Shown one piece after another: positions 11,927-27,296 of a stretch of DNA of 64,000 bases. Location of the stretch: the NCBI RefSeq assembly GCF_000730605.1, contig NZ_BBIS01000010.1, forward strand, positions 186,001 to 250,000, read 5' to 3'. Each line of letters starts with the position of its first letter. Within the stretch, counting starts at the first letter, position 1. The notes under the pieces were generated by a model. It searched no databases. It was not told the DNA's origin and worked only from the letters and a program-made list of their open reading frames with translations. Source of the DNA: Pseudomonas monteilii NBRC 103158 = DSM 14164. GTDB taxonomy: Bacteria > Pseudomonadota > Gammaproteobacteria > Pseudomonadales > Pseudomonadaceae. The position numbers and the translations under genes are program-made.

Positions 11927-12645
11927 GCCTGTTACCGCACAACGCCACGCTGCTGGAGTGCGCGCTGGAACGTGCCGGCGAGATGGGTGTGGACCCGGAC
12001 ATCATCCGGGGTGTGGCCGACTCGGCACGCTGCCCGCCCAACTTCCTGCCTTGGCTGGGCTGGGCGCTCAAGGTCGACGGCTGGGAGGCCGCTTACACCG
12101 ATGACCAGCGCCGCGCGCTGAGCCGCGAGGCGATTCCTGTTCACAAGACCAAGGGCACCGTCGGCGCAATCCGGCGGGTGCTCAAGGCGGTGCGAGTCAA
12201 TGCGGAGTTCAAGGAGTGGCACCAGATCCCAAACGCCGCGCCGTACACCTTCCAGGTCACGGCCTGGGCCAATGACAACCGGGCGGGCGAGGGTTCGATT
12301 ATCTCGCCCGAGCTGGGCGCGCGTTTGCGTGCCCTGGTTGACGCGGCGAAGAACGAGCGCAGCCACTACGAGTTTCGGCTGGGTGCCCGCTTCGACGGTG
12401 GCCTGGTGCTGGGCAACGCCTTTCAGGCGCGGGCCGTGCAGCACCGCTCTATGGATGCCCAGGCGGTGCCGTTCGGTCCCATGGCGCAGACGGTGCTGTT
12501 TGCCAATGCCCTCAACGCGTCCAGCGTATCCCGGCGGTTTGCCGAGGTGCAGGGCGTTCCTATTCAAGCAGAAGGTGCCCCGCTGGTGGCCAATGCGGCG
12601 CAGGTGCGCACGGTCGTGCGGGGCTACATGGAGGCTGTTCTATGA
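11923..12645 (+). CDS. Baseplate/tail protein I
   Basis: A 240-aa protein of the P2 gpI family (P2 gpI is 176 aa). Typical early region: LLECALERAGEMGVDPDIIRG, then PPNFLPWLGWALKVDGW and an AIPVHKTKGTVGAIRRVL stretch. The C-terminal 60 residues are an extension with irregular repeats (GNAFQARAVQHRSMDAQAVPF and similar), which may help anchor the tail fibre encoded next. It overlaps both neighbours by ATGA. Confidence 0.92.
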   Translation: MSLLPHNATLLECALERAGEMGVDPDIIRGVADSARCPPNFLPWLGWALKVDGWEAAYTDDQRRALSREAIPVHKTKGTVGAIRRVLKAVRVNAEFKEWHQIPNAAPYTFQVTAWANDNRAGEGSIISPELGARLRALVDAAKNERSHYEFRLGARFDGGLVLGNAFQARAVQHRSMDAQAVPFGPMAQTVLFANALNASSVSRRFAEVQGVPIQAEGAPLVANAAQVRTVVRGYMEAVL

Positions 12646-13328
12646 GTACAGGCTTGCAACCTGTCATCACCAAGGCCGGCCTGGCGGCGATCCTCAAGGC
12701 TACGACAACCGGCCTCTCGGCCGAGATCAGCCATATCGCCCTGGGCAGTGTGGCCTACACCCCGAGCGCCGAGCAGAAGACCCTGCGCAACGAGGTGGCG
12801 CGCTTCCCGATTTCCAGCGGCGAGAAGCTGAGTAGCACGCTGTTGCACCTGACCGCTGTCGCCGATGGCACGGCAGCGTACTGGGTGCGCGAGGTCGGGA
12901 TTTTCCTCAGCGACGGCACCCTGTTGGCGGTCTGGTCGCACCTGACCGAGGCGCTGGCCTACAAGGCCGCCAACATCGACCTGCTGCTGGCCTACGACCT
13001 GTCACTGGCGGCGCTGCCGGCGGACAGCGTGACCATCACCAGCACGGCCGCCGGCCTCAACCTGACGCTGGCGGAGCCACTGGCTGCGCTGGCCTCGGCG
13101 GCGATTGCCGAGCAGCTTCGCAACCTGGAGCAGCAAGACCGCCTGATCAGTTTGGAGCGTCGGCAAAGGGTTGCAGAGGACCAGATCATCGGCCTGCTGG
13201 AGCGCATGAGTGCCGCCGAGAAAGCCGCCACCGAAACGCGCGACAGCCTGCTGAGCGCGACGGTTGCCAATGCCACCGGCCTGATGGCCCTTCAATACAC
13301 CGTTGTTCAACACTTGTACGGATCCTAA
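12642..13328 (+). CDS. Tail fibre, N-terminal attachment module (P2 gpH-like)
   Basis: A 228-aa protein. Residues 1-150 match the conserved particle-binding start of P2-type fibres (VITKAGLAAILKATTTGLSAEISHIALG, then YWVREVGIFLSDGTLLAVWS). After that, instead of a long fibre shaft, the protein ends in a coiled-coil-like tail (EQLRNLEQQDRLISLERRQR, then LLERMSAAEKA) and stops. The receptor-binding part is apparently supplied by the separate gene at 13331. P2 gpH is about three times longer. Confidence 0.85.
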   Translation: MSTGLQPVITKAGLAAILKATTTGLSAEISHIALGSVAYTPSAEQKTLRNEVARFPISSGEKLSSTLLHLTAVADGTAAYWVREVGIFLSDGTLLAVWSHLTEALAYKAANIDLLLAYDLSLAALPADSVTITSTAAGLNLTLAEPLAALASAAIAEQLRNLEQQDRLISLERRQRVAEDQIIGLLERMSAAEKAATETRDSLLSATVANATGLMALQYTVVQHLYGS

Positions 13329-13330
13329 CC

Positions 13331-14062
13331 ATGAGCCTTGAAACTGAAATCGCCGCGTTGGTCGCGGCAAACAACAAAATGGTGGACTACTTCAACGGCA
13401 AAAAAGCCGCGATTGACGCTGCCGTGTCTGCAGCGGTCGCGGCAGCGCCTTCGATTGTTCGCGCCTACTGGGTGGACCCGCAGTTGGGCGACGACAGCGC
13501 TATCGGTACCGAGGCCAGCCCATTCAAGACCTTGCAGCGGGCCGTCGATGCCACCCCGGACGGTGGGCGGGTTACAGCGTGGCTGGCCAGAGACTATGTC
13601 CTGGATAAGAGCATCACTACATCAGGTCGTCAGCTGGTCATTGCAGCTGTGGCTGGGTCAGGCCGAAAGCTGATTTGCAATGAGTTCATGCCGGAGGGCA
13701 GTGACCAGCTGACTCGCATGGGGTCTTTCTGGTTGTCGAACGGCTCGACCCTGCAGCTGCTTAACGTGACGGTCAGTCTTCCGGCCTCGAGCGCCGGTGA
13801 TTTGAGCGCCTACTATGCGCTCGCTTTTGCCAGCGGATCGTCGGCCCCGATCCTTATGCAGGTGCGCATGTACAACTGCACGCTTGAGCTGCGCGGCACT
13901 TTCCGGGGCAAGTTGATCGGGCCAGGCTCGGCGCTCATTGCGCTGTCAATGACCGGCACGGCGGTGCCTTCAGCACTCAATGGCTCCCTGTTTGTGGGTA
14001 TCGCGGCGGGCACCCTGTCCAAAGATTTGGGCCACATCATTACCAACCTGTCGAGCCTGTGA
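13331..14062 (+). CDS. Probable receptor-binding protein, beta-helix type
   Basis: A 243-aa protein starting 2 bases after the fibre gene. Residues 1-35 are helical, then YWVDPQLGDDSAIGTEASPF with KTLQRAVDATPDGG follows: the opening of a right-handed parallel beta-helix as found in tailspikes and capsule-degrading proteins. The rest alternates short hydrophobic strands. It is short for a tailspike, with no evident catalytic triad. Inferred role: host recognition at the tip of the short fibre. Base composition is a little less GC-rich and codon use less strict than in the neighbouring baseplate genes, as is usual for exchanged host-range genes. Confidence 0.65.
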   Translation: MSLETEIAALVAANNKMVDYFNGKKAAIDAAVSAAVAAAPSIVRAYWVDPQLGDDSAIGTEASPFKTLQRAVDATPDGGRVTAWLARDYVLDKSITTSGRQLVIAAVAGSGRKLICNEFMPEGSDQLTRMGSFWLSNGSTLQLLNVTVSLPASSAGDLSAYYALAFASGSSAPILMQVRMYNCTLELRGTFRGKLIGPGSALIALSMTGTAVPSALNGSLFVGIAAGTLSKDLGHIITNLSSL

Positions 14063-14069
14063 GGCGATC

Positions 14070-14525
14070 ATGCAAAAGACCTTTCTGAACGTAGTTTACG
14101 GCGAGACCAACTACAACGGCTTCGACTTCGAGGCGTTGCCCATTGGCGCGGCGCTGCTGGTGGCCCAGCAGCAAATCGAGAAGGCGGCCGACCAGGCGCT
14201 GGCAGCGGTGCTGGGTGATCCGCTGCGCGCCATCGAGAACCAGCTTGCCGAGAGCGAGGCGAAGGCTTTCAAGCTGGTGGGTTACGACGGTGAGGTTCCA
14301 TTGACCGTACAGGCCGTGGTCGATGCCCAGGGCGTCGAGCCCATGGAGGCGGCCGAGTCGATCCTGCAGGAGGCGCAGGCGTGGCACACGGCTGTTTGCG
14401 CAATCCGTGCAGCCCGCCTCAAAGGCAAGGTCGAGGTGCTCAAGGCGACTACCCATGCGCAGGCTGAAACCTACGCCGACGAGGCGATCAACGCCATCCG
14501 CGCGAGCGTGCCGGGCGCCGCCTGA
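14070..14525 (+). CDS. Phage protein of unknown function, possible fibre assembly chaperone
   Basis: A 151-aa, Ala/Glu-rich, mostly helical protein (EKAADQALAAVLGDPLRAIENQLAESEAKAF and a helical C-terminus). I chose ATG 14070, seven bases after the fibre-tip stop and with gtgaggcg before it. Fibre genes are normally followed by a chaperone gene, and this is the only gene in that slot, so a chaperone role is likely but rests on position. I do not recognise the family. Confidence 0.6.
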   Translation: MQKTFLNVVYGETNYNGFDFEALPIGAALLVAQQQIEKAADQALAAVLGDPLRAIENQLAESEAKAFKLVGYDGEVPLTVQAVVDAQGVEPMEAAESILQEAQAWHTAVCAIRAARLKGKVEVLKATTHAQAETYADEAINAIRASVPGAA

Positions 14526-14548
14526 CCCGCTAGCCGCATTCCCTTGAG

Positions 14549-14607
14549 CGCCCCGTTTTCGGGGCGTTTCCGTTTCTGTTGGGCCGCCGCGTGCGGCCCT
14601 TTCTTTT
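14549..14607 (+). terminator. Two tandem terminator-like hairpins before the sheath gene
   Basis: First hairpin: cgccccg (14549-14555)/cggggcg (14560-14566), loop tttt, then tttccgttt. Second: gggccgc (14581-14587)/gcggccc (14593-14599), loop cgcgt, then tttctttt leading into ggag, the sheath ribosome binding site. They separate the baseplate/fibre block from the sheath/tube block and may lower read-through or protect the abundant sheath-tube mRNA. Confidence 0.65.
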
Positions 14608-14618
14608 GGAGCTATCCC

Positions 14619-15785
14619 ATGGCTGGATTCTTTCACGGCGTTACCGTAACGAACGTCGACACCGGCGCGCGCAACGTCGCGCTGCCGTCTTCCTCGATCA
14701 TTGGCCTGGTCGACACTTTCACCGAGGGCGCGAACGTCACGGCCAAGGTCGGCGACCTGGTGTTGCTCACCAACGAGCGGGAGGCCGTCGCGGCATTCGG
14801 CGCCACTGCCGCCATCACCAAGGCCTGCCAGGCCATCTTTGCGCGTTCCAAGGCGGTCATCGTTGCTTCGGGTGTGGCCAAGGTGGCCGACGCGGCCGCG
14901 CAGACTTCCGCGATCATTGGCGGGGTGCAGGCCAGCGGCAAGCGTACCGGCCTGCAGGCGCTGCTGGACGGCAAGAGCCGTTTCAACGCCCAACCGCGCC
15001 TGATCGTCGCGCCCAAGCACAGCGCGACCCTGGCGGTGGCCACCGCTATGGATTCGATTGCGGCCAAGCTGCGCGCGGTGGCGATCATCGACGGCCCCAA
15101 TACCACCGACGAGGCGGCCACCACCTACGCCAAGTCGTTCGGCTCCAAGCGCATTTACATGGTCGATCCGGGTGTGCAGGTGTGGGACACCGCCACCAAC
15201 GCGACCGTCGACGCGCCGGCTTCGGCCTGGGCTGCAGGCGTGTTTGCTTACACCGACAGCGAGTACGGTTTCTGGTCGTCGCCATCGAACAAGGAGTTTG
15301 TCGGTATCACCGGCACCACGCGCGCCATCGAGTACCTGGACGGCGACGAGACGTGCCGGGCCAACCTGCTCAACAACGCCAATATCGCGACCATCATCCG
15401 TGACGACGGTTTCCGCCTGTGGGGTAACCGCACGCTGTCGAGCGATCCGAAGTGGGCATTCGTCACCCGCGTGCGAACCATGGACATGGTGATGGACGCG
15501 ATCCTGTACGGGCACAAGTGGGCGGTGGACCGGGGTATTACCTCGACCTATATCCGCGATGTGACCGAGGGCCTGCAGGCCTTCATGCGCGACCTGAAAG
15601 CCCAGGGCGCAATCATCAACTTCGAGGTCTACGCCGACCCGGTGCTCAACACGGCCAGCCAGCTGGAGCAGGGCAAGGTGTACTGGAACATCCGTTTCAC
15701 CGACGTTCCGCCGGCCGAAAACCCCAACTTCCGCATCGAGGTCACCAATCAATGGCTGACCGAAGTCCTCGATCAAGTCGCGTAA
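14619..15785 (+). CDS. Contractile tail sheath protein (P2 gpFI)
   Basis: A 388-aa protein (P2 FI is 396). It begins MAGFFHGVTVTNVDTGARNV, the family start; the middle has VQASGKRTGLQALLDGKS and PRLIVAPKHS, and the C-terminus KVYWNIRFTDVPPAENPNFRIEVTN strand that links neighbouring sheath subunits. I chose ATG 14619 with ggag just upstream; an upstream in-frame start at 14544 would run through the two hairpins. Confidence 0.97.
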   Translation: MAGFFHGVTVTNVDTGARNVALPSSSIIGLVDTFTEGANVTAKVGDLVLLTNEREAVAAFGATAAITKACQAIFARSKAVIVASGVAKVADAAAQTSAIIGGVQASGKRTGLQALLDGKSRFNAQPRLIVAPKHSATLAVATAMDSIAAKLRAVAIIDGPNTTDEAATTYAKSFGSKRIYMVDPGVQVWDTATNATVDAPASAWAAGVFAYTDSEYGFWSSPSNKEFVGITGTTRAIEYLDGDETCRANLLNNANIATIIRDDGFRLWGNRTLSSDPKWAFVTRVRTMDMVMDAILYGHKWAVDRGITSTYIRDVTEGLQAFMRDLKAQGAIINFEVYADPVLNTASQLEQGKVYWNIRFTDVPPAENPNFRIEVTNQWLTEVLDQVA

Positions 15786-15797
15786 GGAGCGCATCAC

Positions 15798-16307
15798 ATG
15801 GCAATGATTCCCGAGATTCTGGCCAACATGAACCTGTTCGTGGATGGCGTCAGCTTCCAAGGCGATGTTCCCAGCCTGACCCTGCCCAAGCTCACGCTGA
15901 AAATGGAGGAGCACCGGCCCGGTGGCATGGATATGCCGATTGAGATGGATGTGGGCATGGACAAGATGGAGTCCAACTTCACCACCACCGGCGTGCGCAA
16001 AGAATCCCTGAAATTCTTCGGCCTGGCTGACGGCAACGCGTTCAACGGGACGTTCCGGGGTTCGTTCAAGGGCCAGCGGGGCGAGACCAAAGCGGTGATC
16101 GTCACTCAGCGCGGCACCCTGAAGGAGCTGGATATGGGGGACTGGAAGCCGGGCGACAAGGCTGAGTTCAAGCACTCCGTGGCGTTGACCTATTACAAGC
16201 TCGAGGTCGGTGGTGAGGTCATCTATGAGATCGATCCAGTGGCGATGAAGCGCGTCATCAACGGTGTCGACCAGCTGGCCAGCCAGCGCCGCGACCTCGG
16301 CCTGTAG
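15798..16307 (+). CDS. Tail tube protein (P2 gpFII)
   Basis: A 169-aa protein (P2 FII is 172). Typical pieces are IPEILANMNLFVDG near the start, LPKLTLKMEEHRPGGMD, and QRGTLKELDMGDWKPGDKAE. It forms the rigid inner tube that is driven into the cell. A good ribosome binding site (aaggag) lies before the ATG. It lies 12 bases after the sheath stop. Confidence 0.97.
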   Translation: MAMIPEILANMNLFVDGVSFQGDVPSLTLPKLTLKMEEHRPGGMDMPIEMDVGMDKMESNFTTTGVRKESLKFFGLADGNAFNGTFRGSFKGQRGETKAVIVTQRGTLKELDMGDWKPGDKAEFKHSVALTYYKLEVGGEVIYEIDPVAMKRVINGVDQLASQRRDLGL

Positions 16308-23467: not shown

Positions 23468-23585
23468 AAAGAGGCGAGCCGGGGGGATGCGCCAACATCC
23501 AGCCCGGCCCGCCGAACCCGCAGACCATTCCTGCAAGTCCAGCCGTGGCCTCTGCCTTGTGCACAAAGCGCGGCGAGCCTAACAC

Positions 23586-23601
23586 CTGTTTATCCATACA
23601 G
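23586..23601. promoter_or_regulatory. Candidate LexA (SOS) box upstream of the methyltransferase
   Basis: ctgtttatccatacag fits the CTGT-N8-ACAG LexA consensus exactly and ends 17 bases before the methyltransferase start. The flanking bases (cc-box-ta) are only partly consensus. There is no strong ribosome binding site between box and ATG. Suggests repression until DNA damage. Confidence 0.55.
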
Positions 23602-23618
23602 TAAAGACTTGCATACCT

Positions 23619-24413
23619 ATGACCTCTCCAATCATCCCCTGGATGGGTGGCAAACGCCGCCTGGCCGACCGCTTGATCCCTCTCTTCCCCCCTCATGAAT
23701 GCTATGTCGAAGTCTTTGCCGGCGGAGCCGCGTTGTACTTCATGCGTCCCCAGCCAGCTCCGGTGGAGGTGCTGAACGATCTCAATGGTGACCTGGTCAC
23801 TCTTTACCGAGTTGTGCAGAACCATCTGGAGGAGTTCGTGCGCCAGTTCAAGTGGGCGCTCAGCTCTCGCCAGATCTTCGAGTGGCAGAAGATGACCCGT
23901 CCCGAAACGCTGACTGACATCCAGCGCGCGGCCCGATTCTTTTACCTGCAGCAGCACGCCTTCGGTGGGAAGGTGACTGGGCAGACGTTCGGTACCGCGA
24001 CGACAGGGCCGGCCATCAATTTGTTGCGTATCGAGGAGAACCTATCCGCCGCGTGGCAACGACTCGCCGGCACATACGTCGAGAACCTGTCTTGGCTTGC
24101 TTGCGCCGAGCGCTACGATCGAGCGCACACATTCTTCTACATGGACCCGCCGTATTGGCAGACCGCAGGCTACGGCGTGGACTTCCCATTCGAGGAGTAC
24201 GAGCGCATGGCCGACTTTATGCGCCGGTGCAAGGGCAAGGTGATGGTCAGCATCAACGATCACCCGGACATTCGGCGCGCCTTTGACGGCTTCCACTTCG
24301 AGTGCCTGGATATCCGCTACACGAACACGAACCAGCGGCAGGGTAAGGCGGAGGTGACCGGCGAGCTGGTGATCATGAACTGGCAGCCTGCCTCGCTTGG
24401 TGGTTTGTTCTGA
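23619..24413 (+). CDS. DNA N6-adenine methyltransferase (Dam/D12 class)
   Basis: A 264-aa enzyme that transfers a methyl group from S-adenosylmethionine to adenine. Motifs in order: PWMGGKRR (residues 7-14), FAGG (33-36) for cofactor binding, and the catalytic DPPY (176-179). Length matches the D12/MT-A class. It is a single phage-borne gene without a restriction partner, so it probably protects phage DNA from host restriction or alters regulation. The target sequence cannot be read off. It lies apart from the late operon behind its own control region with a LexA-like box. Confidence 0.93.
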   Translation: MTSPIIPWMGGKRRLADRLIPLFPPHECYVEVFAGGAALYFMRPQPAPVEVLNDLNGDLVTLYRVVQNHLEEFVRQFKWALSSRQIFEWQKMTRPETLTDIQRAARFFYLQQHAFGGKVTGQTFGTATTGPAINLLRIEENLSAAWQRLAGTYVENLSWLACAERYDRAHTFFYMDPPYWQTAGYGVDFPFEEYERMADFMRRCKGKVMVSINDHPDIRRAFDGFHFECLDIRYTNTNQRQGKAEVTGELVIMNWQPASLGGLF

Positions 24414-24423
24414 CTTAATATGA

Positions 24424-24455
24424 CCTGTGATCGAGTTAATTCGATCGCAGGGTTT
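24424..24455 (+). terminator. Hairpin after the methyltransferase gene
   Basis: 11-bp stem cctgtgatcga (24424-24434)/tcgatcgcagg (24441-24451) with one G-T pair, loop gttaat, then gtttc. The T run is short, so termination may be partial. Confidence 0.5.
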
Positions 24456-24478
24456 CTAGGTGCGAGTGGAGAAAGTAA

Positions 24479-25069
24479 ATGCACTTCGATTGGCAGGAGT
24501 TCTTGAGTTCAGCTTGGAGTGTCATTTCCAGTAATGGGATGCCGGCCTGGGTGCAGGCGATAGGTTCGATCATAGCGTTAGTTGTTGCCATTCGAGTATC
24601 GCGGCTTTCCGTAGAACATGCTGGCTTGCTCAAACAGAAGACCATCTTTTCTATTGCTGAGGCGGTGCGAGAATATTCGAGTAAAGTTCGCGCAGCAATC
24701 AACGATATTGATGATGATCCCGGAAGCAATATCAGTCTTTATCATGTGTACCACAGGGACGTTACAGCAGGTTTGGTTAGGGCCCTTCAAGGCGTTCCGG
24801 TGCATGAGCTTGCATCTGGGCAGCAGGTGCTCGCAATACTGGGGCTGGCCAATCAGCTTGTGTTTATGGGGGATGCGACAGATAAACTGCTTGGCCCAGC
24901 ATCAATGCAGCCTGAAGTTTTAAAAGCGCTTGAGAGTCTGGGCGATGACCATGAGCGGCGTCGGAAAATTTCAGATATTGCTCTTAATGTGCTGAAAAGA
25001 AATGCTTTGAATCACTTGGATAAGATGGATGAGCATTATAATTCGCTGAAAAGCACTTTGGGTAATTGA
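24479..25069 (+). CDS. Membrane-anchored protein of unknown function (phage accessory gene)
   Basis: A 196-aa protein. One clear membrane segment at about residues 21-40 (PAWVQAIGSIIALVVAIRVS) follows a short N-terminus; the remainder is hydrophilic, helical and probably cytoplasmic (HAGLLKQKTIFSIAEAVREY and a charged C-terminal helix with ERRRKISDIALNVLKRNALN). Ribosome binding site ggagaaag. The gene is clearly more AT-rich than the virion genes, as is usual for recently acquired accessory genes. The position at the right end of a prophage fits a lysogen-expressed gene such as superinfection exclusion or defence, but no family is recognised. Confidence 0.75.
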   Translation: MHFDWQEFLSSAWSVISSNGMPAWVQAIGSIIALVVAIRVSRLSVEHAGLLKQKTIFSIAEAVREYSSKVRAAINDIDDDPGSNISLYHVYHRDVTAGLVRALQGVPVHELASGQQVLAILGLANQLVFMGDATDKLLGPASMQPEVLKALESLGDDHERRRKISDIALNVLKRNALNHLDKMDEHYNSLKSTLGN

Positions 25070-25128
25070 GTTGATTTGTGTTTTCAACTTGCATTGACGA
25101 AAACTTGATTTGATTCAGGTTTAACGAG

Positions 25129-25404
25129 TTAAGGCAGAGCATCGGCAGCAAGCTCGGTCAGCCGCTGACAGGCGATGTTATCCACCAGGATTTCCACGCG
25201 CTCGATGTCGGAACGAAGTAGAACATGCCCCATGTCCAAGCCAAGACAGGCCCCCTGCGCGCAGGCTTGGGCAATCAAGCAGTTTACGGGGCTGTTGGCA
25301 GCTTGGATCGATGCGAGGAGCAGGCGAAGGCGTCGCTGGATCTCCGGTGGTAACACAAGGCCGGGTACCAGTTCTCCGCTTGGAAATCGGTAGCGCTGCG
25401 TCAT
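25129..25404 (-). CDS. Small unknown protein, second gene of the XRE pair
   Basis: A 91-aa protein, start 25404, six bases after the stop of the XRE gene and so in the same operon. It begins TQRYRFPSGELVPGLVLPPE; the middle is hydrophobic/helical (RRLRLLLASIQAANSPVNCL), and it carries three Cys in NCLIAQACAQGACLG. No known domain recognised. Being paired with a regulator behind a LexA box suggests it is made after DNA damage. Confidence 0.65.
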   Translation of the reverse strand: MTQRYRFPSGELVPGLVLPPEIQRRLRLLLASIQAANSPVNCLIAQACAQGACLGLDMGHVLLRSDIERVEILVDNIACQRLTELAADALP

Positions 25405-25410
25405 GGCTGG

Positions 25411-25776
25411 TTACTCGAGCAGGTGAAAGTCTCGGCGGTTGCGGGGGTCTTTCGTTGATCCTCGGCAGTTCATGCCCCTGAGTGGCGGATGGCCTGGGAA
25501 AAACACCAGGCCTTCAGCTTCAAGCGCAAATGCCAGTGCTTGCATACTCACTTCCTTGAGGTGCATGCCATGCTCAAGCCGCTGGATGGACTGAGGAGTA
25601 ACCTTGGATGCTGAGCTGAGGTCGGCGATGCTCCAGCCCAGTAGCTCACGCGCAGGTGCACAATGAGCACCCCGAAAGCTGAGTGGCAGGTGATCCATGA
25701 GCCACGCGATTGCTTCGAGCTGATCCTCGTCCAAGTTGAGGCGAAGCGGTTGGCGATCAAGAACATGAGAGGTCAT
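25411..25776 (-). CDS. XRE-family helix-turn-helix regulator
   Basis: A 121-aa protein. The helix-turn-helix lies at about residues 43-85: ARELLGWSIADLSSASKVTP then QSIQRLEHGMHLKEVSMQAL, followed by FALEAEGLVFFPGHPPLRG, a typical ending of single-domain phage/plasmid regulators. The first 40 residues are an extra N-terminal part. Start 25776; a -10 (TATACT, complement of 25808-25813) overlaps the LexA box upstream. The gene faces away from the late operon. It may control the accessory genes or the partner at 25129. Confidence 0.85.
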   Translation of the reverse strand: MTSHVLDRQPLRLNLDEDQLEAIAWLMDHLPLSFRGAHCAPARELLGWSIADLSSASKVTPQSIQRLEHGMHLKEVSMQALAFALEAEGLVFFPGHPPLRGMNCRGSTKDPRNRRDFHLLE

Positions 25777-25791
25777 GGCTACACTTCTGGG

Positions 25792-25811
25792 TACTGTACA
25801 TGCGAACAGTA
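25792..25811 (-). promoter_or_regulatory. LexA (SOS) box at the XRE promoter
   Basis: tactgtacatgcgaacagta: the full TACTGT-N8-ACAGTA consensus, 16 bases upstream of the XRE gene's start. On the minus strand a TATACT -10 overlaps one half-site, with a weak -35 (TTTTCT) at 17-base spacing. This is one of the best SOS-box matches in the window. Confidence 0.75.
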
Positions 25812-25910
25812 TAGGTGATGCGAATGCGTTAGAAAAGCTTGCAGGTCACTGGGACAAACAGGTGGCAACCATAGGCGACTATGCTGATGCGTACGTCGAA
25901 GCCAGAATGC

Positions 25911-25957
25911 AAAAAAAGGCGATCAAGTCCCAATATTCCGGGGCTTGGTCGCCTTTT
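25911..25957. terminator. Strong hairpin terminator, bidirectional
   Basis: 17-18-bp stem, aaaaggcgatcaagtcc (25914-25930) with ggcttggtcgcctttt (ending 25957), two G-T pairs, flanked by A7 on the left and T4 on the right, so it can end transcripts from either side. It lies between the SOS-controlled pair and the Fic/Doc gene and would stop transcription coming from the toxin operon. Confidence 0.8.
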
Positions 25958-26028
25958 ACCGTACCACCTGCAGCGCACTTGATGCTCGCGCCGCTAGCGA
26001 GAGGGAGTGCCAGGTTGTGGTTGCACAC

Positions 26029-26532
26029 TCAGTCCTGTTGTACTGTCGTTTTGTAAAGCAGGCTGGCGGCAGGGAACTGAGCCTGTAGCGCTGAAAAGTA
26101 CTCACCGCTGTCCAAGATGCGAGTATCGAACTCAACAAGATAATAGGCTAGCCAGTTCTGGAGATCTTCTAGTGTGGCAGTCTTTACTACATAGCTAACG
26201 ATAATATCAACGAGATGCTCTGGTGGCGCCTGAATGCGATAACCATTCAACAGAAAGAACATCATGCCAGCAGCGGCAGCGGTCCTCTTGTTTGCGTTGG
26301 CAAAGCAGTGATTATCTGCAATCCCAGCAATCAATACGGACACCAAAATGATGAGGTCTTCTGTTTGCTCGTACCACCGGTACATTCCCGGTTTTTGCTG
26401 AGCAGAGGCAAGCTCATTGGGTTTGATAACACCAATGGGCTCATCGGGGGTTTGAGTCTCGATCAGCCACCTATTGATTGCGATGAGGTCTTCAACAAGT
26501 AGGAAATGAATACCGTCGCAATCAGTAGGCAT
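26029..26532 (-). CDS. Fic/Doc-family toxin
   Basis: A 167-aa protein with the Fic core motif HCFANANKRT at residues 75-84 (Doc pattern HxFxxANKRT) inside a helical fold; the preceding helix ADDLIILVSVLIAGIAD-like and the following AAAAGMMFFLLNGY fit Doc. Doc-type proteins phosphorylate EF-Tu; Fic proteins add AMP to targets. The acidic residue expected after HxFx is Asn79 here, seen in some relatives and possibly altering activity. The start has no good ribosome binding site and lies 23 bases after a 54-aa gene, suggesting coupled expression of a toxin-antitoxin pair. Confidence 0.88.
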   Translation of the reverse strand: MPTDCDGIHFLLVEDLIAINRWLIETQTPDEPIGVIKPNELASAQQKPGMYRWYEQTEDLIILVSVLIAGIADNHCFANANKRTAAAAGMMFFLLNGYRIQAPPEHLVDIIVSYVVKTATLEDLQNWLAYYLVEFDTRILDSGEYFSALQAQFPAASLLYKTTVQQD

Positions 26533-26555
26533 TGATCAGATTTCAAAGAATGAAA

Positions 26556-26720
26556 TTAAACCTTCGCGAGTTCGGCGAAAGCCTTCTCGTTCTCAATGAG
26601 GGTAATAGCGAAGGCATTTTGCACCTGCACGTCATGGAAGCCACGTGTTGGGCGCGCGCGCACTCCTTTCTTGTCCCGTGGTGGGGCAACGAAATGGGTT
26701 GGTTTCTTCAATGCGCTCAT
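26556..26720 (-). CDS. Small protein upstream of the Fic/Doc gene, probable antitoxin
   Basis: A 54-aa protein, start codon complement at 26718-26720, with gaggag 8 bases before it. Sequence MSALKKPTHFVAPPRDKKGV, then RARPTRGFHDVQVQNAFAIT and LIENEKAFAELAKV. The N-terminal half is basic and could bind DNA; the C-terminal half would form one helix that could fill the toxin's active-site groove. It is unlike Phd (73 aa), and I do not recognise the family. Position, size and tight spacing to the toxin gene make an antitoxin role likely. Confidence 0.75.
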   Translation of the reverse strand: MSALKKPTHFVAPPRDKKGVRARPTRGFHDVQVQNAFAITLIENEKAFAELAKV

Positions 26721-26776
26721 GATCACTACTCCTCGGTGGGCCTCGTAGGCACACCCGCTCGCCGGTTAGGGCTGAA

Positions 26777-26819
26777 AAGCGGCGAAAATCTGCCGCTTAG
26801 GTTGACACGTGTGTCAGCC
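26777..26819 (-). promoter_or_regulatory. Candidate operator and leader hairpin of the Fic/Doc operon
   Basis: ggttgacac (26800-26808) and gtgtcagcc (26811-26819) form a 9-bp inverted repeat with one mismatch and a 2-base centre, 80-99 bases upstream of the 54-aa gene: a likely autoregulatory site. Between it and the gene, aagcggc/gccgctt (26777-26783/26792-26798) is a perfect 7-bp hairpin, followed on the minus strand by tttt. Confidence 0.45.
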
Positions 26820-26964
26820 AATGATCGTAGAGTAAACCACGTAGGGCGCCGCATTCAACATTTATGATGAATATGGATGATGCAGCGTGATTGCTATGAA
26901 GCGGAGAAACGCAGCGAAAGCATCGAAATAGAGCGGCTCGCTGGTCAATTTGAGGAGTCTGTAG

Positions 26965-27021
26965 GCTGTCCCCTAGGTACGCTGGCGCCTCTATGAGGCG
27001 CCAGCGTACCTAGGGGACAGC
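26965..27021. repeat. Perfect 27-bp inverted repeat with 3-base loop
   Basis: The arm beginning gctgtcccctaggtacgctg (26965-26991) is perfectly complementary to 26995-27021; the centre is tat. Neither side has a T run, so it is not a standard terminator. Its left arm covers the end of a 39-codon open frame (26877-26996). It lies about 240 bp inside the phage end. Confidence 0.95.
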
Positions 27022-27260: not shown

Positions 27261-27286
27261 GGGTTCAAATCCCTATCTCTCCGCCA
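27261..27286 (+). other. Right attachment site (attR) at a tRNA-Ser 3' end
   Basis: The 26 bases beginning gggttcaaatccctatctct and ending in ccgcca are the T-loop, 3' acceptor strand and CCA of a Pseudomonas serine tRNA. The 5' part of a tRNA (which should begin ggagag) is absent: the stem base pairs break immediately left of ggg. A strong terminator follows at 27297. So the phage joined here and the intact tRNA gene must lie at the other end of the prophage, outside the window. Confidence 0.85.
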
Positions 27287-27296
27287 TACATCGAGA

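Follow-up and report, generated by a model that had tools for sequence, protein, structure and literature searches.

The locus raises the question of what a small regulator gene under an apparent LexA site does at the end of a prophage opposite its repressor. In the usual description, a prophage senses DNA damage by a single route, either a cleavable repressor or a LexA-controlled antirepressor. The window, the whole stretch of 64,000 nucleotides of Pseudomonas monteilii DNA that was analysed, contains a leftward XRE gene directly followed by a 91-aa gene, and an earlier note had proposed that the two form a DNA damage-induced module separate from the lysis/lysogeny switch. The features needed for the argument are as follows.

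23584-23603, plus strand: second SOS-type box ACCTGTTTATCCATACAGTA, in front of the dam-type gene, 15 nt from its ATG
23619-24413, plus strand: D12-class adenine DNA methyltransferase (dam-type), convergent with XRE
24479-25069, plus strand: 196-aa ORF, cargo between dam and XRE, 47.7% GC
25129-25404, minus strand: 91-aa three-helix protein (PHROG 36962), optional partner, 6 nt behind XRE
25411-25776, minus strand: XRE (Cro/C1-type) regulator of 121 aa with a single HTH and a conserved C-terminal tail
25792-25811, no strand assigned: LexA (SOS) box TACTGTACATGCGAACAGTA, an exact match, kept in relatives, overlapping the putative -10 of XRE
25808-25813, minus strand: putative -10 element TATACT, read from the sequence
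25911-25957, no strand assigned: hairpin whose T tract is on the minus strand, located between Doc and the promoter of XRE
26029-26532, minus strand: Doc-type (Fic) toxin gene upstream of the XRE promoter, 48% GC
27261-27289, plus strand: attR, an exact 29-nt repeat of the tRNA-Ser(CGA) 3' end

The LexA box had been called near-perfect in the earlier note, and it proved to be better than that. In the pattern search of the window, TACTGTACATGCGAACAGTA showed 0 mismatches to TACTGT-N8-ACAGTA, with both LexA hexamers exact, and a LexA box thus stands at the promoter of the XRE gene, as in members of the LexA/SOS regulon. Sites matching the full-arm pattern with at most 2 mismatches numbered 3 in the window, while 0.46 were expected. 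The looser core with at most 1 mismatch gave 24 sites for 23.4 expected, which is chance level; therefore, the case for the XRE box rests on its full arms and on its conservation. The middle of the box, ACATGCGA, was less A+T-rich than the middles of most boxes of the relatives. The ATG of XRE lies at 25776 on the minus strand, 15 nt from the box, and the overlap of the box with the -10 of this leftward gene was also found as described, the -10 (25813-25808) being putative. In the promoter scan of 24300-26900, 0 sigma-70 sites were called, and no good or consensus -35 was found for XRE.

The conservation of the box was determined from the window and 45 related loci, comprising genomes and viral contigs, of which 38 had at least 80 nt of upstream DNA and a usable start and were reduced to 32 distinct upstream regions. 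A perfect CTGT-N8-ACAG was located 10-18 nt before the start in 29 of the 32 regions of prophage XRE relatives, two others carried one mismatch, and one had no box; in mononucleotide-shuffled 60-mers, the box rate was 0.0005 per region. A full-length XRE without a box was observed in L145. Eight loci stood outside the count: four with little or no upstream DNA (L148, L149, L151, and L163), a disrupted XRE with a perfect box (L135), a truncated XRE whose box has one mismatch (L157), and two without a box, in which the 5' end was unrecognisable (L155) or the XRE was frameshifted (L164). As the 45 loci contain near-copies (e.g., L121/L139, L126/L162, and L158-L161), counts per 45 loci are not independent. 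When 27 perfect boxes were stacked, identity between loci was 28-34% in the flanks and 52% in the middle eight bases, and the 100% identity of the core is by construction because only perfect boxes were stacked. In the prophage relatives, the box arms are held while the rest of the promoter drifts. Conservation upstream of orthologues, on which the earlier note had made its proposal depend, was therefore observed, as for a gene of the LexA/SOS regulon, with flanks only about 30% identical.

In the own genome, CTGT-N8-ACAGTA gave 14 matches at 10 distinct sites, and the backward control gave 2. Two of the ten sites were those of XRE and dam. Five others lay near the starts of genes that, by eye, we take to be yebG, umuD, a PA0069-like radical-SAM gene, and two DUF1654-type genes, and the remaining three lay near no gene that we would assume to be a classical SOS member.

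The spacing given for the 91-aa gene was correct, as the stop of XRE is followed by 6 nt and then by the ATG of the 91-aa ORF (TAACCAGCCATG); the two-gene module built on it did not hold. The 91-aa gene adjoins XRE in only 3 of the 45 loci (L120, L123, and L138), and at E 1e-10 the protein was found in 5 of 398 genomes of the genus, only two of them close (the own genome and G113), whereas 221 of these 398 Pseudomonas genomes had an XRE relative at E 0.001. A fixed pair was ruled out by this adjacency and this genome spread. Damaged XRE/91-aa pairs were recovered with the 91-aa query in L074/L077, which belong to one contig, and in L076. The conserved unit is the box with XRE, not the XRE/91-aa pair.

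For the 91-aa ORF itself, no Pfam, NCBIfam, or PADLOC match was obtained up to E 1, and its profile found nothing under E 0.3 in the PDB. A match to PHROG 36962, a family listed with unknown function, was obtained at E 4.7e-10 and assigns the protein to that family. The model was a three-helix bundle (pLDDT 88.3), for which Foldseek returned a best solved structure at E 0.73 and a best viral model at E 0.03, the matches being mostly uncharacterised phage proteins. The tblastn search of the phage collection gave a single match, in Pseudomonas phage PARCL1pr (40.7%). The wider family was found in 98 viral stretches, of which 80 were kept, and its members stood beside lysis genes, SRAP, or dam of other prophages in four of the five loci inspected (gene names by eye). 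The 91-aa protein is probably an optional co-transcribed passenger, perhaps tied to the lysis and right-arm region where its wider family occurs.

The prophage occupies 40.9 kb in tRNA-Ser(CGA) and is bounded by exact 29-nt copies of the 3' end of the tRNA, at G000:C123:172385-172413 and 213261-213289, the latter corresponding to 27261-27289 of the window. The integrase (L165 5973-7232) and a repressor with HTH and S24 domains (L165 12928-13779) were located at the left end, with terminase, tail, and lysis genes between the two ends, and the XRE start lies 1.5 kb from attR. XRE is thus at the prophage end opposite the integrase and the HTH+S24 repressor, which agrees with the earlier statement that it is separate from the lysis/lysogeny switch. 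The HTH+S24 protein shows Ala-Gly together with Ser and Lys residues as in cleavable repressors, the motif being read by eye. Moreover, 11 of the 12 XRE-bearing virus records encode an S24 protein whose reading frame is open over 221 aa or more; the remaining record is a fragment, 29.6 kb long. G435 has another S24 frame, a short one, which may be UmuD. Near attR, a perfect 27-nt inverted repeat with a 3-nt loop was also observed at 26965-27021 (fold, -63 kcal/mol), and its arm had no other place in the window within 3 mismatches.

As the regulator is the conserved part, its family was characterised. XRE matched HTH_3 at E 5e-5, with 23.7 bits against a cut-off of 23, which places it among proteins with the Cro-C1 domain. 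Its AlphaFold model had a pLDDT of 86.4, and the best PDB profile match was the controller C.Kpn2I at E 4.5e-5; Foldseek of the model gave no PDB match under E 0.001. In the wider set, relatives were found in 33 of 95 genomes, the own genome included. No match was obtained by tblastn at 1e-5 in the phage collection, and 29 plasmid records matched, all at <60% identity. In the tree of 69 protein rows and 121 columns, in which many forks stayed open, a branch with 100% SH-aLRT split 43 chromosomal rows from 25 prophage rows and one plasmid copy. The plasmid copy was placed among the prophage XREs, and a single clade of prophage rows was not rejected (AU p 0.417).

The product of the chromosomal sister gene is about 105 aa long, in some cases as long as about 125 aa, and the sister loci share a neighbourhood consisting of a beta-lactamase-fold hydrolase, an AefR-like TetR regulator, and a GGDEF protein. 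No phage was found beside the gene in the loci inspected. The core of the box was perfect in 27 of 28 sister loci, with one mismatch in L026, and the exact 20-mer AACTGTACAAAAACACAGTA, middle included, was present in 168 of 398 Pseudomonas genomes. The gene at L067 6848-7165 and its relatives are sisters with exactly this 20-mer. The own genome, G000, has the prophage copy of XRE only. The sister is a candidate for an undescribed SOS regulator.

A second box of SOS type precedes the dam-type gene. ACCTGTTTATCCATACAGTA has 2 mismatches to the full arms and a perfect core, and the core upstream of dam was kept in 20 of 20 distinct regions counted, compared with 0 of 48 distinct regions upstream of gpD, GH19 endolysin, and Rz, which were taken from these loci as controls. 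However, the 20/20 is weaker evidence than the figure for XRE, as the entire dam upstream region is similar between loci. The count left out duplicates and damaged copies (L075, L076, L077, L142, and L162), matches whose start was not at the first residues, and loci in which the upstream DNA was shorter than 65 nt; one of the latter is L120, where dam shows no box because it ends 23 nt from the contig end. The dam-type gene is accordingly presented as a candidate SOS-controlled phage methylase. Both dam and XRE were seen in 24 of the 45 loci, in convergent orientation in 21 and with dam on the other side in 3; a further 14 had lysis or tail genes without dam, and 7 had none of these genes. In L158 and L160, XRE is situated between Rz/dam and gpD, an order that L161 (Rz, XRE, gpD) and L159 (XRE, gpD) match as far as they extend, and on the other side of XRE dam was found in L156 and Rz in L157.

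The interval between XRE and the dam or lysis genes measured 0.02-5.8 kb and was filled with unrelated genes, the content being read in 23 loci. In L128, L129, L145, and L150, the XRE-dam gap was <100 bp and held no cargo. The family scan, which covered 14 cargo proteins, identified AbiTii and PDC-S59 (L143), PD-T7-3 (L147), PDC-S31 (L146), SRAP (L127), HNH_5 (L144), DUF4062 (L152), umuDC-type genes (L125), and SocA/Panacea (L130, a stretch without dam or lysis gene whose slot was assumed). L153 carried type I-C cas5c-cas8c-cas7c and three degenerate repeats spaced 66-68 nt. On this viral contig, the cas7c, cas8c, and cas5c genes occupy 12007-15838 of the dam-XRE slot, and no cas3, cas1, or cas2 was recognised among the listed ORFs of the slot. 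In sister prophages, a umuC-type gene, recognised by eye, was observed in the slot at L121 10376-11647, and umuC-type (by Pfam) and umuD-type genes at L125 10320-12042. By their sequence, these are mutagenic polymerase genes carried by phage.

In the window, the slot contains the 91-aa gene and the 196-aa ORF. For the latter, no match under E 0.09 was found in four family libraries and no relative at E 1e-4 in 50 loci. On the other side of XRE, no antitoxin was recognised beside the Doc gene, and the only partner candidate checked, a 56-aa ORF, had no Pfam match. The placement of XRE in the Doc operon was considered and rejected on account of the T-tract hairpin between them, which folded at -28.1 kcal/mol on the minus strand over 25901-25975 and was absent from the list of the terminator scan.

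XRE is probably a prophage-borne, LexA-repressed Cro/C1-type regulator that gives the prophage a second SOS arm, distinct from its main repressor switch, and we put the probability of this reading at about 0.6. It is favoured because the box overlaps a -10-like element, because this box and the dam box are kept, and because the chromosomal sister keeps a box of its own. In the lysogen, LexA would block the XRE promoter. Following DNA damage, active RecA would lead to cleavage of LexA, and XRE, here with the 91-aa protein, would be made at the time when the own S24 repressor of the phage is cut and Dam is made. XRE, most likely a dimeric repressor, would then bind operators via its single HTH. 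Since similarly controlled sisters are encoded on many host chromosomes, XRE would during the SOS phase most likely act on a host promoter, or on promoters at the right end of the prophage, and not on the lysogeny switch. More tentatively, the chromosomal gene, syntenic in many Pseudomonas species, and its prophage sister might form one SOS-induced Cro/C1-type family acting as a second SOS tier, in which LexA controls the regulator, the regulator resets further promoters, and the phage copy bends this tier during induction.

Two other roles for XRE had to be weighed against a second SOS arm. The earlier note had offered a link between SOS and accessory genes, which may be put as control of the variable cargo slot or the right end by XRE, in the manner of a restriction-modification C protein. 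XRE does border a slot with type I-C cas genes, AbiTii, PD-T7-3, umuDC-type genes, and SRAP, which is indirect support for that part of the claim, and C.Kpn2I was its best PDB profile match. However, the cargo differs completely between loci and is often on either strand, four loci carry none, and the likeness to C proteins may be a general likeness of HTH folds, so that we regard slot control as unlikely. The antirepressor suggested in the same note, meaning that XRE, alone or with the 91-aa protein, would be a LexA-controlled antirepressor or Cro-like induction trigger as in Gifsy prophages and coliphage 186, agrees with the layout, in which a LexA-boxed gene lies outside the immunity region with the same logic (Lemire 2011, PMC3121763), and with the Cro/C1-type HTH of XRE. 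That part of the suggestion stood. It was weakened by the S24 evidence: by sequence, the repressor does not resemble the uncleaved type of Gifsy, since the own protein has an S24 domain and 11 of the 12 related records encode an S24 protein, and induction would need no second trigger. The S24 evidence lowers a trigger role for XRE, as does the sister without a phage beside it in the inspected loci, and we consider the antirepressor improbable.

The nature of the palindrome and of the gene pair can be questioned as well. If the palindrome were the operator of XRE itself, through autoregulation, or a site common to XRE and LexA, the mostly fixed chromosomal 20-mer would be explained, as its middle is conserved beyond what LexA alone would need. 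In the prophages, however, fixed CTGT/ACAG arms surround a variable middle, and the same arms precede dam and host SOS-type genes; autoregulation by XRE is hence given little credence. A toxin-antitoxin pair of XRE and the 91-aa protein would suit a small two-gene unit with a 6-nt gap and an adjoining Doc toxin gene, but neither a stable pair nor a toxin domain, as expected of type II systems, was found: the two genes stand side by side in 3 of 45 loci, no toxin family was matched by the 91-aa protein, and in the five loci inspected for its wider family this XRE is absent. Such a pair appears very improbable.

The second SOS arm would matter beyond this prophage. At the opposite end of the genome, prophages of a widespread family appear to carry two more LexA-boxed genes, one for a methylase and one for a transcription factor. 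Between these two lies a slot whose cargo changes and includes genes of phage defence. The retention of the box while the promoter drifts points to a second, separate link of the phage to the host SOS response. Moreover, the nearly invariant box of the chromosomal sister suggests an undescribed second-tier SOS regulator in Pseudomonas.

LexA control of prophage genes that lie outside the immunity region is already known. In the open-licence literature searched, the XRE family and its box were not named, and no Cro/C1-type regulator under such control was found with a chromosomal sister and, around a cargo slot, a LexA-boxed dam. Compared with PHROG 36962, the 91-aa protein is longer than the common members of about 76 aa, although it matches the profile. 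XRE resembles the Cro/C1-type (XRE, HTH_3) regulators, including the C proteins of restriction-modification systems, in its HTH_3 domain and fold, but the prophage protein has an N-terminal extension of about 30 aa, a conserved tail (NCRG-T--P--R-D), and a LexA box upstream. Repressors of the Gifsy prophages (GfoA/GftA) are inactivated by a small protein and not by cleavage, according to PMC3121763. XRE shares with the Gifsy antirepressors and with coliphages 186 and N15, as treated in PMC3121763, a gene outside the immunity region, direct LexA control, and the reading of the host SOS state. Unlike the Gifsy proteins as described there, XRE is a DNA-binding HTH protein, its phages have their own S24 protein, and a chromosomal sister exists.
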